Shown: one piece after another, positions 13,789 to 22,074 of the stretch
Position numbering within the stretch: the first letter of the stretch is position 1
Layout of the letters: each line of letters opens with the position of its first letter
IMG/VR virus record: IMGVR_UViG_3300006641_000180
Location: 1-23,780 of that record
Reading direction: 5' to 3' (one strand)
Origin: a virus
Length of the DNA: 23,780 nt
The notes under the pieces: generated by a model
What the model saw: only the letters and a program-made list of their open reading frames with translations
The model's database searches: none
What the model was told of the DNA's origin: nothing
Translations under genes and position numbers: made by a program

Positions 13789-13817
13789 ATTATATCACTG
13801 TGGCCTTGAATTGTCAA
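13789..13817 (-). promoter_or_regulatory. Sigma-70-type promoter for the tape measure gene (P2)
   Basis: On the minus strand, TTGACA (13817-13812) and TATAAT (13794-13789) are separated by exactly 17 bp. The -10 is also extended by TGA directly before it. The promoter starts about 20 bases after the terminator core and would give a leader of about 40 bases ahead of the tape measure start. An 8-bp palindrome, TGGTACCA (13782-13789), covers the expected start site. Confidence 0.92.
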
Positions 13818-13834: not shown

Positions 13835-13871
13835 AATAAAAAACCCGCTAGGTTTTACTTAGCGGGTTTTT
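13835..13871 (-). terminator. Intrinsic terminator overlapping the chaperone stop codon
   Basis: CCCGCTA (13844-13850) and TAGCGGG (13860-13866) form a 7-bp core with a nine-base loop, extended by A/T pairs to about 12 bp. On the minus strand the stem is followed by a run of T residues (TTTTTTATT). The plus strand also reads a T-run after the stem, so it may work both ways. The stop codon of the frameshifted chaperone is in the loop. Confidence 0.9.
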
Positions 13872-14639
13872 CTTGTTGCTTCTTTTGCTTTCTAATCTCA
13901 TCAATTCTGACGGAATCAATCATGTGGATTAATTCTAGGTAAAACCTTTTATCACAGGGCTCAATATCATATGCATCGAATACCTCAAAGATACCGTTTA
14001 TATTTTTACCTAAATAGTTTCCACCCACAAATTCCCACTCATCACGAAGTATTTTGTATATACTCAATGCAATTTGAACTTCAAGTGGAAAGTCGTCAAA
14101 TTCAACTGGTATTTCTTCTTCAACTGGTTCGTTGCCCAACTGCTCGCACATATCAAAATACTGCTCCTTGGTCATGCCAAGATTAGCATTTTGCATATAG
14201 CTTGTTATTTGAGCTTTAGTACTTACTAGTTGCTCTTCGAGAAGTTTCCCAAGTCGTTAACCTTTTCACTTACAAAACTATCAAAGTCACTGCTGTTTTT
14301 CATCAGCATAAGCGCATTTTCTTTGCTGTATGCAAGTTCATCTTCAGGATCGTACTGAGATACATCAACAGGTACTAACAGGTTAATATACTTAAACTTT
14401 AAGCCGCTCCAGCCTTTAATGGCTGCATCAACATACAGCTCTAGGAAAAGATCTTCATTAAACTCCTCTTGAGTTTGGCGACCTTTAAAAGTAGTTTTAG
14501 TAGACTTTTTACGCAGGTTAATCAACCCGTCCCGGCTTAAGTAGTTAATTTCCAGTTTAAATTCTGGAAATCCTGGGTACTCTACTTCGATGGTTTTGCT
14601 TGGTACTAGTAGTGATTTTAGGCTAATTTCTTGTGCCAT
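13855..14639 (-). CDS. Frameshifted tail assembly chaperone, gpGT-like (join across 14244)
   Basis: After a -1 slip at 14244-14250, the first 132 codons of the chaperone are joined to 129 codons of the next frame, giving a product of about 261 aa. In lambda the T part contacts tail tube subunits and the G part binds the tape measure. The second part has family-like features: FPLEVQIALSIYKILRDEWEFVGGNYLGKNINGIFEVFDAYDIE, then DKRFYLELIHMIDSVR. The first ATG in the second frame (14196) has no ribosome binding site, so separate translation is unlikely. The last codons and stop are inside the stem of a terminator, which ends this transcription block. Confidence 0.82.
14226..14639 (-). CDS. Tail assembly chaperone, lambda gpG-like
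   Basis: This 137-aa protein probably coats the tape measure during tail assembly and is absent from the finished virion. It begins MAQEISLKSLLVPSKTIEVEYPGFPEFKLEINYLS and is acidic towards the end (YDPEDELAYSKEN), as in other chaperones of this class. Position between tail tube and tape measure is diagnostic. The ribosome binding site is weak (AAGG with about six bases to the ATG). Near the end, the codons TTG GGA AAC contain the slippery heptamer GGGAAAC, so a fraction of ribosomes should shift into the following frame and make the longer product. Confidence 0.82.
   Translation of the reverse strand: MAQEISLKSLLVPSKTIEVEYPGFPEFKLEINYLSRDGLINLRKKSTKTTFKGRQTQEEFNEDLFLELYVDAAIKGWSGLKFKYINLLVPVDVSQYDPEDELAYSKENALMLMKNSSDFDSFVSEKVNDLGNFSKSN
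14244..14250 (-). other. Programmed -1 frameshift site GGGAAAC
   Basis: The minus strand reads G GGA AAC in the zero frame at codons 130-132 of the first chaperone, which fits the X XXY YYZ rule exactly. lambda uses GGGAAAG at the same place. The -1 frame has a TAA just upstream of the site and is open from the site to 13855. The shifted product therefore continues as LLEEQLVSTKAQITSYM and on into the second frame. I saw only weak pairing downstream and no obvious stimulatory hairpin. Confidence 0.88.
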
Positions 14640-16377: not shown

Positions 16378-17873
16378 ACCAATACTGCCCTCATACGTGC
16401 TGCAACTTGTTGCTGCATAATTTCTCTAATAGATTTGCTGATAAGCAGTTTAGGGTCTCGGCTTCTGGGCAGCTCCTGTCTACCACCTTGGCTAAATGTT
16501 GCATAGGGGTTTTTCATGTAAGTGTAAAAGGCAGTTATCATGCCTTCACGACTTTCACTTAATCGTTGAACCTTTACGCTTTCAGCAAAGCGTCCACTAC
16601 GTAGATTAAGCACATCACGTCTATTACCAGCACCCATATTGCGCTTAACTTGTTCTACTAGACTGCCGTCCAGTATTTTTTGTAAGCTCATCAGTGAAGT
16701 GCTAGAATCGTCCGGTTCTAGCTGTTTAAACTGTTTAGGATCTTTTTTAGTAGCTTTTATTTTACTACGCAAAGCTTTAGCTGCATTAATCTGTTTTGTT
16801 TTACGCTTTGGCTTATTAATCTTTACAGTATTTTTTCCAACAGCAACTTTTGGACTTCTATATGTCTTTTTAGTTGCCTTGCCATTCTTTATGTTTCCAA
16901 CCAACTCATCAACAATGAGCTCTAACATACTAGGAGAGCCGCGTTCTTCGATTAAGCTAGTTCCTAGTGCAGGACTTGACTCTAATACTTTTATTAGTTC
17001 CTGCTCTGCTAGTTTTCCTCCAAATATATTACGAAGTTCTTCAACAATAGCAATACTGGCGCGACCTGCTTCGATGTTACCTGTTGCAACTTGCATTTCT
17101 ACTAGATATTTATCGCTACTCTTAATATACTTGGCGTACATTTCTTGAGTGATTGCGTTTGGTAGATTTGCTGTAGCTAAGTCATCTTTTAGTAACTTGT
17201 CAATGTATTGATCAAGTACCTTTATAAGTTCTTGCTTTTGCTTTTGTGCTAATGCGTCGGCTTTTTCTATCTCTGTTCTGAACTGCCTGGCTAAATTAGT
17301 GGCTACTGCTATAACGTGACCTTTGTTAAAGTAGAAACCTAGAGTGGCTCTGCGTTTAGCTTCCTGGTCTAATTTGTCAAGCTCTGCCTGTTTTTGACTA
17401 GCGGTTAAGCCCGCGTATTTTGGACTGGCTTTTAATACTTTTACTTGTTGTTCATAGAATCGTTCTTCAGCTTGCTGATAGGCGACTTCTACTTCTGGCA
17501 TAGTATTGATTACAGCTGCCAACTTTTCACTAATTGTGTCAAAACCAATATTTTCAAAAAATATTGCTCGTTGTCCGCCAACTGTAGTGTATACACCTTG
17601 TAAGCCAGTAGTCTTTTTACCACTAGTAAACTCTGGATTACGTAAGTCTTCTAGTAATACTTGTAATTCTAGGTCATCTATATCGCTACCGGTAATGGTT
17701 TTAAACATCTTTTTAACGGTAGATTCAGTAATATAAAAACTAGTTTTACTGGCTGTTAGTTGGCTCTTGCGTAATGAATCAACTGTGCTAGTTACAATAT
17801 TTTTATCTAACTTAGCAAGCCAATCTTTGTAAATTTTATCTTGCAATAACTTGCTAAAGTTTTGTATTGCCAT
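16374..17873 (-). CDS. Large neck or tail-completion protein (inferred)
   Basis: This is a 499-aa protein in the slot of lambda gpZ or HK97 gp10, between connector and tail terminator. Its last 100 residues resemble that tail-completion group: LNLRSGRFAESVKVQRLSE (422-440), then YMKNPYATFSQGG (452-464) and SRDPKLLISKSIREI (471-485). The first 320 residues are mostly helical and unfamiliar to me, with coiled-coil-prone stretches at 130-175 and 195-230. Residues 328-384 are very Lys-rich, which suggests DNA or acidic-surface contact. lambda gpZ has about 190 residues, so the N-terminal part is an addition of unknown role. The start overlaps the connector stop, and the end overlaps the next start by four bases (ATGA). 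Confidence 0.65.
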   Translation of the reverse strand: MAIQNFSKLLQDKIYKDWLAKLDKNIVTSTVDSLRKSQLTASKTSFYITESTVKKMFKTITGSDIDDLELQVLLEDLRNPEFTSGKKTTGLQGVYTTVGGQRAIFFENIGFDTISEKLAAVINTMPEVEVAYQQAEERFYEQQVKVLKASPKYAGLTASQKQAELDKLDQEAKRRATLGFYFNKGHVIAVATNLARQFRTEIEKADALAQKQKQELIKVLDQYIDKLLKDDLATANLPNAITQEMYAKYIKSSDKYLVEMQVATGNIEAGRASIAIVEELRNIFGGKLAEQELIKVLESSPALGTSLIEERGSPSMLELIVDELVGNIKNGKATKKTYRSPKVAVGKNTVKINKPKRKTKQINAAKALRSKIKATKKDPKQFKQLEPDDSSTSLMSLQKILDGSLVEQVKRNMGAGNRRDVLNLRSGRFAESVKVQRLSESREGMITAFYTYMKNPYATFSQGGRQELPRSRDPKLLISKSIREIMQQQVAARMRAVLV

Positions 17874-18439
17874 TATGTATAGTCCACTACATATTGATCT
17901 AGTATACGCTTAATGTGTGCTGGTAGATTTGTAGTGCTTACATACTCAATCTGTACACTGTTTGTGCCAGGTGCCTTACTACTGTGTATAGCACCATCGT
18001 TTTTGCGATAGTATGTAATCAAGTCTAATACAGCTAATTTTAAATCTTGTGGTACAAACTCATAACCTGCAAAATAAGTTACTTTGTACCCATTAATCAT
18101 TTCGGGCCATACACCTGTAGCGTGTAGTGATACTATACTGTCACCATCCTGAACCCAGTCTGTAAACTTGGTTAGTTTTGTATATGTTTGGCCGTAGTTA
18201 GTACTACGCTCAACACTGATAACTTGTGTGACGGGTGTTTCTTTTAGCAGTAGTGCTGCAAAGCCACCTTTAAAGATCTCTGACTTGGTTTCGTCAAAGT
18301 AGTCTATAAAAGTACGTTTGCAATATGTTTTCACTAACTCAGAAACTTTTGGTATTAAAAATTCTATTTCGGCATCATGGTTGGTACTGTTAATGCCAGC
18401 ATAAGTTTTGTATTCTTGTTTAGTAACTAAATCTGCCAT
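17873..18439 (-). CDS. Head-tail connector (HK97 gp6-like)
   Basis: This 188-aa protein probably forms the ring under the portal that closes the head after packaging. The N-terminal half looks like the gp6/DNA-packaging connector family: LVTKQEYKTYAGINSTNHDAEIEFLIPKVSELVKTYCKRTFIDY, followed by a beta-rich middle (YGQTYTKL, DWVQDGDSIV) and the GYKVTYFAGYEFVPQDLKLAVLDLITYYRK motif typical of the family. I place the start at the ATG at 18439 because a perfect AGGAGG lies eight bases upstream. A TTG one codon earlier is a less likely start. The stop overlaps the next start by one base (TAATG). Expression may be modulated by the hairpin pair upstream. Confidence 0.87.
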   Translation of the reverse strand: MADLVTKQEYKTYAGINSTNHDAEIEFLIPKVSELVKTYCKRTFIDYFDETKSEIFKGGFAALLLKETPVTQVISVERSTNYGQTYTKLTKFTDWVQDGDSIVSLHATGVWPEMINGYKVTYFAGYEFVPQDLKLAVLDLITYYRKNDGAIHSSKAPGTNSVQIEYVSTTNLPAHIKRILDQYVVDYT

Positions 18440-18450
18440 CAACTAGTCCT

Positions 18451-18494
18451 CCTGTCTTTTAACTAGACTCTAAGGAATCCAGTTAAAAGACAGG
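18451..18494 (-). promoter_or_regulatory. Alternative 14-bp hairpin that masks part of the connector ribosome binding site
   Basis: On the minus strand, CCTGTCTTTTAACT (18494-18481) is perfectly complementary to AGTTAAAAGACAGG (18464-18451), with a 16-base loop. The first arm shares CCTGTC with the 3' arm of the terminator-like hairpin, so the two structures exclude each other. The second arm ends with the first AGG of the connector Shine-Dalgarno AGGAGG (18453-18448). This geometry suits a conditional switch on readthrough or translation, which is inference from complementarity alone. Confidence 0.6.
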
Positions 18495-18513
18495 GATCAT
18501 AATGATCCCTGTC
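18485..18513 (-). terminator. Terminator-like hairpin after the capsid gene
   Basis: On the minus strand, GACAGGGATCA (18513-18503), the loop TTA and TGATCCCTGTC (18499-18489) form a perfect 11-bp stem, followed by TTTT and then AACT. It begins ten bases after the capsid stop. The short U-run suggests partial termination or a 3'-end stabilising hairpin rather than a full stop. Its 3' arm also pairs with the sequence before the connector gene. Confidence 0.7.
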
Positions 18514-18522
18514 CAAATAACA

Positions 18523-20448
18523 TTAAGCTACGTAACGAATAGCGCTGACACCAGCACCGTTGTTAGTTGTAACTTGTGTTAGACCTGTGCGTAGGCTTGC
18601 AACCATTACACGGCGTTGTGTTTCAACTAGGTCGTCTGTGTCAACACGTAGACCACGCTGATTACCAACTAAGAAGTTCATTGGTGCGTAGCATAGAGCT
18701 GCAACTTCACCGGCTGCCTTGCTGTTGAACTCAGCACTTACTAGTACTGGGCTGTTAGCAACTGTACCGATTTGACCTGTTAGTAAGGTAGCCTGTGGGC
18801 CAACTTTATCCATGGTCTGGAAGTTAGCGTCGTCTAGTAGGTCATAGTAACCTTCTGTGCTAACAACATAGATGACTTCGGCTGGGTCAAGACCCCAAGC
18901 ACCGATATCACGACGTGCACCACGTAGAGCAGCAACAGTTAGCTTGTCGCCATTGCTGATGTCTAGTGTAACTGCACTTGCTGCATCATAAGCAGCCAAA
19001 CCCTTAACAGGATCAGCACCTGCACCAGCACCTAGGCTGAATGCCTTGTCAACTGCGCGAGCAACACGGCGAACCATGGCGTCACGAACAACAGGCATAA
19101 TTGCTAGCAGAGCGTCTTCTTCCTCTTCGAAAGCGACATACTCGTTTGTAGCAACCTTGTATGCGTTTAGAGTGATTTCCTTTAGGGCGTGTGTGGCGTT
19201 ACCACCTGCGCTACCGCTTGTACCGAACTGGTTGTTCTGTACCCAAGTTGCCATGCCAGCCTCTGGATTTACAGGGATAGTCATAACATTGGTTTGCATG
19301 TTAATTGCACGTAGTGTTGGTGCAATAACTAGACGGCGGCGAACTTCGTTTTCCATTTGTAGGCTAACTTCTAGTTCCCATGTGGCGCTAGGTACGTGTG
19401 CACCAGCCTTTTCAACTAGTTGACGACCAAACTTGGTGCTCTCTAGGCTCTTACCACTCATCTTGGCTAGTAGAACTGCCTTTTCCTTTTCAGCATAGGC
19501 TAATTCACCTTGCTTGCTATCAGCAAATTGCATCTTGCTTTTCTGGATAGCTTCTAGTTCAGCAGCCTTCTCTTTTAGAGCAGCTTCTAAACCTTCAAGA
19601 GCCTTCTTGCTCTCTGTGCGCTCAGCTTCTAAACGCTTTTCAACTTCGGCTAGTAGCTTGTCAGCACCAGTCTCAGTAGGAGTAACGGCAGCAACAGCAG
19701 CCTTAATGCGAGCTTGTAGCTCGGCTTCTGCCTTTTCTTGAGCAGCCTTTTCTTGAGCAGCCTTTTCTTGGGCAGCAACTAGAGCCTTAGCTGTTTGCTC
19801 AGCGGCTTTAGCAGCGGCATCAGCTAGCATCTGTTCTAATTGTTTTGGATCCATATTCCATTCCTTTTTAATGTCGCTATTTGCTTCCGTTGAGGACTCT
19901 AGCCCTTTAGCTGACTCGCTGCCGGGTGCAAATTGCTGTTTGTACAAACTATATTCCTCGTCAGTATCAAATGACTTGGCTAAATTAAACAATGTATTTT
20001 GATTTGCTGGCACTGACACGACGGAAATTTCATGTAGTTCCAAATCTTTAACTAAGAAAACTTCGGCTGCTGTATTGTACTCCGCGTCCTTAATACGGAA
20101 TCCAATACTAAAGGCGCTCAGCACACCCTTTTTAATCAGCTTGTACACATCGCCGGCAGCGTCTGAAATTGTGGCTTTGATCCATAATCCCTTGCTGTCA
20201 ACTTTATGTTCTACCATTTTGCCTACCGGCATAGTATGATTATGATAGGCGAGAATAACAGGATTCTTTAAATAATCTGCTAATCCCTTTTCCCAAACGC
20301 TAGTCGGGACTACGTCTCCGTGTCTGTCCTTGTCGTTGGTACTAGCATAACCTTCAATCATTATGCTCTGATCTTCATCATCGTCTTTGGGTAGTGCTTT
20401 GGCAGTAAATTTACTGTTAAAGTAAAGTACTTTATCTTTATCTACCAT
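18523..20448 (-). CDS. Prohead protease - scaffold - major capsid fusion
   Basis: One 641-aa frame carries what are usually two or three genes. Residues 25-160 form an S78-type (HK97 gp4-like) prohead protease, with HGDVVPTS at 43, a candidate catalytic His in AYHNHTMPVGK (H69 or H71), the Ser motif SAFSIGF (S111/S114) and ELHEISVVSVPAN (137-149). Residues 199-310 are an Ala/Glu/Lys/Gln-rich coiled coil, probably the scaffolding delta domain. Residues from about 330 to 641 are an HK97-fold capsid (PF05065-like), including SLQMENEVRRRLVIAPTLR and IYVVSTEGYYDLL. The start has a strong AAAGGAG four bases upstream. A second strong ribosome binding site before Met199 should yield a separate 443-aa scaffold-capsid. 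I infer that the long product supplies protease in minor amount. A terminator-like hairpin follows the stop. Confidence 0.95.
   Translation of the reverse strand: MVDKDKVLYFNSKFTAKALPKDDDEDQSIMIEGYASTNDKDRHGDVVPTSVWEKGLADYLKNPVILAYHNHTMPVGKMVEHKVDSKGLWIKATISDAAGDVYKLIKKGVLSAFSIGFRIKDAEYNTAAEVFLVKDLELHEISVVSVPANQNTLFNLAKSFDTDEEYSLYKQQFAPGSESAKGLESSTEANSDIKKEWNMDPKQLEQMLADAAAKAAEQTAKALVAAQEKAAQEKAAQEKAEAELQARIKAAVAAVTPTETGADKLLAEVEKRLEAERTESKKALEGLEAALKEKAAELEAIQKSKMQFADSKQGELAYAEKEKAVLLAKMSGKSLESTKFGRQLVEKAGAHVPSATWELEVSLQMENEVRRRLVIAPTLRAINMQTNVMTIPVNPEAGMATWVQNNQFGTSGSAGGNATHALKEITLNAYKVATNEYVAFEEEEDALLAIMPVVRDAMVRRVARAVDKAFSLGAGAGADPVKGLAAYDAASAVTLDISNGDKLTVAALRGARRDIGAWGLDPAEVIYVVSTEGYYDLLDDANFQTMDKVGPQATLLTGQIGTVANSPVLVSAEFNSKAAGEVAALCYAPMNFLVGNQRGLRVDTDDLVETQRRVMVASLRTGLTQVTTNNGAGVSAIRYVA
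19731..19775 (-). repeat. Three tandem 15-bp repeats in the scaffold coding region
   Basis: CCTTTTCTTGAGCAG on the plus strand occurs three times head to tail, with a single G for A change in the third copy. It encodes the repeated pentapeptide AQEKA at residues 225-240 of the fusion. The in-frame repeat lengthens a predicted coiled coil of the scaffold segment, and copy number could vary by slippage without breaking the frame. Confidence 0.9.
19852..19869 (-). promoter_or_regulatory. Internal ribosome binding site and start codon for the scaffold-capsid product
   Basis: Inside the protease-capsid fusion, the minus strand reads AAAAAGGAA (19869-19861), then seven bases from the end of AAGGA to an in-frame ATG at 19854. 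Spacing and match are ideal for a Shine-Dalgarno. The start falls exactly at the boundary between protease and coiled coil (Met199), which would give a 443-aa capsid precursor. This is the expected way to make hundreds of capsid subunits per protease. It has not been proved by expression data. Confidence 0.75.
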
Positions 20449-21645: not shown

Positions 21646-22074
21646 TTAGCAAAATTCGCTGAAGTGGCTGCCAAAGCTAGGCTTGCGTATACTTGAACCG
21701 TTTAAGTGTTTTTCGCGCTGTATCTCGATCCAACGAGCCTGCTTTGGCTCCGAACCGGGTTGAGGAGTCTTACCGTATACACCGTGTAGTTGTACATGAT
21801 GTGGGTTACATAGGGTATATACCTGATCATATATTTCTGCATGGTGCTGCTCAATAAACTCGTCACGAACAGCCAAAATACCCTCATCGGTGCTAATATC
21901 ATAGCCCTGAGCTTGTGCCCACCGTTCCAGCAGTACAGTAATACTATGTAAGTGGTGTAGTTCTAAATCTGTGGTTCCGCTACAAATATAACAGCTTGTT
22001 TGCTTTTCATAAGCCGACTTAGCACGATCGCGAACCCATTTTACAGGAATGCGCTTGTTTGTATTTTTTGCCAC
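21646..22074 (-). CDS. HNH endonuclease next to terminase
   Basis: This is a 142-aa HNH/beta-beta-alpha-metal nuclease. A first zinc knuckle is visible at C28-x2-C31, then the catalytic-type ELHHLH (H40, H41, H43), and a second knuckle LCNPHHVQLH (C89, H92, H93, H97) in which His replaces the usual second Cys. HNH proteins in this position, for example HK97 gp74, assist terminase in cutting at the packaging site, so the same role is inferred here rather than homing. The start is a GTG at 22074: the frame has a TAG five codons upstream and no ATG in between. An AGGG lies about nine bases before it. The gene follows P1 directly and its stop is nine bases before the portal start. Confidence 0.85.
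   Translation of the reverse strand: MAKNTNKRIPVKWVRDRAKSAYEKQTSCYICSGTTDLELHHLHSITVLLERWAQAQGYDISTDEGILAVRDEFIEQHHAEIYDQVYTLCNPHHVQLHGVYGKTPQPGSEPKQARWIEIQREKHLNGSSIRKPSFGSHFSEFC

Follow-up and report, generated by a model that had tools for sequence, protein, structure and literature searches.

Phages make hundreds of capsid proteins and few adaptors from neighbouring genes of one operon. What, then, is the role of the RNA structure that occupies the boundary between these two genes in an uncultured T5-like phage, and what would become of the messages that run through it? The window, by which we mean the whole 23,780-nucleotide stretch that was analysed, is a contig of such a phage; its late genes occupy the minus strand in the order terminase, HNH-like gene, portal, fused protease/capsid, head-tail adaptor and neck, followed by the tail terminator, major tail protein, chaperones and tape measure. 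The gap between the capsid stop codon (18525-18523) and the adaptor start (18439) contains, on the minus strand, a double hairpin whose two members are called S1 and S2 in the following list.

18523-20448, minus strand: fused protease and major capsid gene (phrog_80, phrog_617)
18523-18525, minus strand: stop codon TAA of the capsid gene
18503-18513, minus strand: segment X, the 5' arm of S1, GACAGGGATCA
18489-18499, minus strand: the 3' arm of S1, TGATCCCTGTC, where the shared strand Y starts
18485-18488, minus strand: TTTT, the U tract of the terminator-like S1, also within the 5' arm of S2
18475-18494, minus strand: the 5' arm of S2, with 18494-18489 common to S1 (18488 too, through a G-U pair)
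18451-18470, minus strand: segment Z, the 3' arm of S2, ending in AGTTAAAAGACAGG
18448-18453, minus strand: Shine-Dalgarno AGGAGG of the adaptor gene, its first AGG inside S2
17873-18439, minus strand: head-tail adaptor (connector) gene, downstream of the element (phrog_442)

S1 pairs 18513-18503 with 18499-18489 over 11 bp, or 12 when G18514-U18488 is counted, and its 3' arm is followed in the window by TTTTAACT. S2 pairs 18494-18475 with 18470-18451 through the arms CCTGTCTTTTAACTGGATTC and GAGTCTAGTTAAAAGACAGG, in 20 uninterrupted pairs, G-U counted, of which the outer 14 are Watson-Crick. The 5' arm of S2 is thus made of the lower 3' arm of the terminator and its U tract, and the bases common to both hairpins are CCTGTC (18494-18489), that is 6 nt, or 7 with the G-U pair. 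The predicted fold of the 106-nt RNA has an energy of -38.8 kcal/mol (z = -5.8), a value matched by none of 200 shuffles, and a mechanical scan with strict settings finds one such double hairpin in the window and none in 40 simulated windows. A sequence-only reading of this DNA had described an 11-bp stem followed by TTTT, a 14-bp stem sharing six bases with it, the first AGG of the AGGAGG within the second stem, and an arrangement hard to explain by chance; the segments and their coordinates are confirmed, as is the position of the AGG in the window, and the shuffles and simulations bear out the last point. Its statement that only one stem can form at a time was too strong: competition is limited to 6-7 nt, S1 and S2 are compatible in their upper parts, and the minimum-energy fold contains the whole of S1 together with 13 bp of S2. 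The S1-complete form of the window has an energy of -33.7 kcal/mol and the S2-complete form one of -33.3 kcal/mol, a difference of 0.4 kcal/mol. Across 84 distinct intergenic regions, the difference between the forms has a median of -0.2 kcal/mol and an interquartile range of -0.4 to +0.8, the few outliers being pairings not closed by the simple helix finder. This near-equality in energy comes from the close resemblance between the sequences of X and Z.

The capsid and adaptor proteins, used as queries, led to 138 distinct capsid-adaptor junctions, and 123 of them belong to relatives defined by a capsid identity of at least 45%. An S2 of at least 14 bp that overlaps S1 by at least 3 nt is present at 120 of these 123 junctions, and the remaining three keep an S2 of 18 bp that reaches 1-2 nt into S1. 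The length of S2 is mostly 16-21 bp, its invasion of S1 amounts to 3-9 nt in nearly all members, and the strand Y, which runs between the two hairpin loops, measures 22-24 nt in 106 of 121 members, a constancy of which common descent may be a partial source. A compensation between the lengths of S1 and S2 appeared strong by permutation but is partly built into the definition of the stem boundaries, and for this reason the analysis relies on the raw length of Y alone. The position and orientation of the element after the capsid stop are fixed, and the gap between this stop and X ranges from about 2 to 43 nt. The loop of S2 has received inserts of 20-41 nt in four members, with the stem intact; in the intergenic regions L065/L198 and L197 the inserts measure 39-41 nt and both stems are intact, and the L198 insert contains a GGTTCGAGTCCC stretch that resembles a tRNA T arm. 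The U tract, covered by the 5' arm of S2 in nearly all members, has a median tail score of 3.3, falling to 0.96-1.75 in several lineages in which S2 is still kept; the terminator part of the element is not universal, since some lineages have almost no U tract. Three contigs found by an exact 17-nt pattern search (L158, L160 and L166) have neither capsid homology nor the double hairpin and were set aside as chance matches. A search of genome contigs returned one metagenome-assembled Verrucomicrobia contig that carries the element, which gives no basis for naming a host.

Is this structure merely inherited, or are both of its pairings maintained? In a plain MAFFT alignment of 32 divergent sequences, made without structure, the proportion of paired cells is 99.0% for form A and 98.6% for form B, and changes are found on both sides in 21 of 22 pairs of form A and 18 of 20 of form B. 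None of 500 shuffles matches the observed pairing values, and sliding the partners makes the pairing fall to 34-58%. The bases shared by the two hairpins change in X, Y and Z together: one shared column reads G-C-G in 28 sequences and A-U-A in 4, and another reads C-G-C in 26, U-A-U in 5 and U-G-U, an intermediate, in one. Placed on the capsid tree, these triple changes correspond to about 3 and 4 events at the two positions, and the sister rows L208 and L211 are one triple change apart. Both alternative pairings are thus kept among the relatives with full covariation, and the three-way coordinated changes show that both are under selection. Furthermore, G-U pairs outnumber A-C mismatches by 50 to 3 in S1 and upper S2, a ratio of about 17, from which it follows that the structure acts as sense-strand RNA.

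In the window and in the relatives, S1 has the GC-rich hairpin, with a loop of 3-8 nt, of an intrinsic (Rho-independent) terminator, and it would presumably terminate transcription. The U tract (18488-18485) is transcribed before segment Z (18470-18451), which is located 3' of it, so that S2 cannot control termination at that place and concerns the read-through RNA only. The next perfect sigma-70-type promoter on the same strand of the window stands at 13817, past the adaptor and major tail genes, and some read-through past the capsid junction is therefore likely to be needed. This promoter (13817-13789, minus strand), just past a terminator hairpin and ahead of the tape-measure gene, and a second one (22138-22110, minus strand), ahead of the HNH-like gene, are both perfect matches to TTGACA-17-TATAAT. 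After the major tail protein gene, the minus strand carries an ordinary terminator (14689-14666; 9-bp stem, 6-nt loop, U tract) that has no second overlapping stem. Two further observations concern other late genes of the same strand. A canonical -1 slippery heptamer, G GGA AAC (14250-14244), stands in the frame of the first tail-assembly-chaperone ORF (14226-14639), and from it the -1 frame is open into the second (13855-14196), which makes a G/GT-type frameshift fusion of the chaperones likely. The ORF 21646-22074, in the terminase-portal interval, starts with GTG and has an HNH-like CxxC...HHLH motif; a Pfam search with it gave zero matches, and it is possibly a homing endonuclease.

The model that we tentatively put first, and which may well be correct without being probable, is that of a conserved sense-strand RNA element at which read-through mRNA would be split by RNase III-type processing, separating the capsid message from that of the adaptor. 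The X-Y pairing forms an intrinsic-terminator-like hairpin after the capsid gene. The Y-Z pairing, a second hairpin of 16-20 bp, can arise only after polymerase read-through and thereby marks the read-through messages. The contested bases can swap between X and Z at almost zero energy cost, and the two hairpins could stack on Y to give a helix of about 23 bp closed by two small loop caps. The host RNase III, or a similar double-strand-specific nuclease, would then cut the Y-Z stem, leaving a capsid mRNA that ends in a terminator-like 3' hairpin, with S1 fully closed, and an adaptor mRNA with a free ribosome-binding site. A double-stranded stem of roughly two helical turns, as befits an RNase III site, is what S2 (mostly 16-21 bp) and Y (22-24 nt) provide. 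The contigs of nine relatives contain no RNase III gene, so the processing would need the host enzyme. RNase III does not obviously require the overlap between S1 and S2, and this overlap is the point that the processing model explains least well.

Several known systems combine some of these properties. In the case of lambda sib, the read-through RNA extends the terminator stem and becomes an RNase III target, which leads to the decay of the int mRNA. Our element is close in idea to this sib/int retroregulation, being a terminator whose read-through RNA folds differently, and thermodynamic prediction indicates that Z, which is present only after read-through, is able to draw the lower part of the 3' arm of S1 into pairing within S2; here, by contrast, it is a separate hairpin further downstream that captures the U tract, and cleavage would be the presumed outcome. 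The capsid/head-completion terminators of T5-like phages (Demerecviridae) occupy the same junction with a GC-rich hairpin and a U run, but they are single hairpins with stronger U tracts (tail scores of 3.8-5.2, against the median of 3.3 in the element), and the tests made do not establish membership of the element in this class or in that of lambda sib. In GenBank records (Vibrio, Klebsiella, Escherichia, Aeromonas, Eos), the capsid junction is mostly occupied by a single terminator of the ordinary kind, and of the 15 junctions that are more distant, almost all of them belonging to cultured T5-like phages, 14 lack a second overlapping stem. Among the cultured T5-like phages, only Salmonella phage SA001 (L181, 2926-3010, plus strand) has such a pair of overlapping hairpins behind its capsid gene; there the pair lacks a U tract and is followed by an inserted gene that has a CapR-homology domain. 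The drop in output after the capsid gene that had been proposed from the sequence is plausible, since an ordinary terminator stands there in most of the cultured T5-like relatives examined.

A precedent for the processing model is Escherichia coli RNase III, which cuts the pflB-pflA interval past a strong terminator, and also the ahpC-ahpF interval, with stabilisation of the upstream message (PMC5371410). These sites and those of T7 likewise consist of intergenic double-stranded RNA between neighbouring genes of unequal demand, but without a conserved isoenergetic overlap of three segments; the fold of pflB-pflA is an ordinary terminator with no overlapping layout, and that of ahpC-ahpF has no overlapping pair by eye. 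Amino-acid attenuators and terminator/antiterminator riboswitches also use alternative hairpins with a common strand, one of them terminator-like, but the competing strand is here 3' of the U tract and powerless over the termination decision. Against Rfam 15, the window gave no match at the gathering score and only sub-threshold hairpin look-alikes, mostly of microRNA families, and the literature searched, outside which most subscription journals lie, holds no description of the layout.

The layout is found at other junctions as well. Strict double hairpins number 11 in 622 kb (eight genomes), against 1 in twelve shuffled copies; seven of the 11 are the capsid junction and the others are unrelated to it in sequence, so that the layout recurs and does not represent one inherited sequence. 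In the L011/L091 genome (L239, 1154-1067, minus strand), it stands where the tape-measure gene ends, ahead of the next tail gene, with a Y of 23 nt. In the L056 genome (L243, 10037-10097, plus strand), two overlapping hairpins, with no U tract, occupy the leader of a phage Hsp20 gene, and a third hairpin comes after them. In the L130 genome (L268, 18442-18522, plus strand), a very long version (14 bp + 27 bp, overlap 12) separates a possible glycosyltransferase gene from a glycine-rich protein gene. The Y of 23-24 nt at other junctions is mildly informative, since the search thresholds force Y to about 20 nt or more. A bolder reading, which we regard as rather unlikely, is that of a new class of phage mRNA element, re-evolved from unrelated sequence at several junctions, in which a three-strand RNA capable of branch migration at near-zero cost would act as a sensor of the occupancy of its flanks. 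If it were true, a strand of about 23 nt common to two capped hairpins would set the ratio of neighbouring messages, and the flanking events sensed would be polymerase read-through, a ribosome at the upstream stop and a 30S subunit at the downstream start.

A narrower proposal, and an unlikely one in our view, is a translational switch, in which the occupancy of X, for example by a ribosome ending the capsid gene, would favour S2 against the adaptor Shine-Dalgarno and lower adaptor translation, a 30S subunit bound to the Shine-Dalgarno favouring the other form. Small forces could tip two forms so close in energy, S2 ends near the Shine-Dalgarno (median gap of 2 nt), and the cost of opening it goes up by at least 3 kcal/mol in 60 of 119 cases when the six lower bases of X are blocked. 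The Shine-Dalgarno starts inside S2, however, in only 17 of the 84 intergenic regions, mostly the close kin of the window, so that its half-hiding, which the sequence-only reading had taken as part of the switch, is a local detail and no family-wide feature. A ribosome that finishes the capsid gene also makes a poor trigger: when the 9 nt beyond the capsid stop, the footprint of a ribosome on the stop codon, are masked, the opening cost rises to this extent in only 11 of 119 cases, and the variable distance from the stop to X speaks against it too. What stands of the earlier proposal is a two-state RNA with a terminator-like first stem, both pairings of which covary and are selected; the classical attenuator, the hiding of the Shine-Dalgarno as the conserved function and the ribosome trigger find no support. 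A true switch is possible.

Equally unlikely, to our mind, is a partial terminator with a shield, in which a leaky S1 would lower downstream transcription and S2 would hide the U tract of the read-through RNA from Hfq or from nucleases that attack single strands, so that the long message would be stabilised with no cleavage and no switch. It agrees with the match between S1 and the terminators found at the same place in T5-like phages and with the cover of the U tract by the 5' arm of S2, but it leaves unexplained both the invasion of S1 by S2, with its coordinated three-way changes, and the persistence of S2 where the U tract is nearly lost.

Two other explanations have very little to recommend them. 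A classical transcription attenuator, with S2 as the antiterminator of S1, would account for two overlapping alternative hairpins of which one is terminator-like, but it is highly improbable, Z not yet being made when the polymerase decides at the U tract. DNA-level palindromes (a cruciform, nicking or recombination site), or functionless repeats kept alike by template switching, would suit the near-perfect palindrome of S2 and the weak match of the model to the opposite strand, but are scarcely credible in view of the excess of G-U over A-C, unexpected for a DNA palindrome, the fixed position and orientation after the capsid stop, and three-way coordinated changes that are independent on the tree.

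In conclusion, the double hairpin is a genuine mRNA element, apparently undescribed so far, of a large group of uncultured T5-like phages, and its role is probably the handling of messages that run past the stop signal of the capsid gene, for which we tentatively favour the processing model. It places a compact RNA, which lies outside Rfam 15, at the capsid/adaptor boundary of 120 distinct uncultured phage sequences. It offers a testable case of an RNA that holds two structures of equal energy over long evolution, and equally of the fate of messages that run through a terminator.
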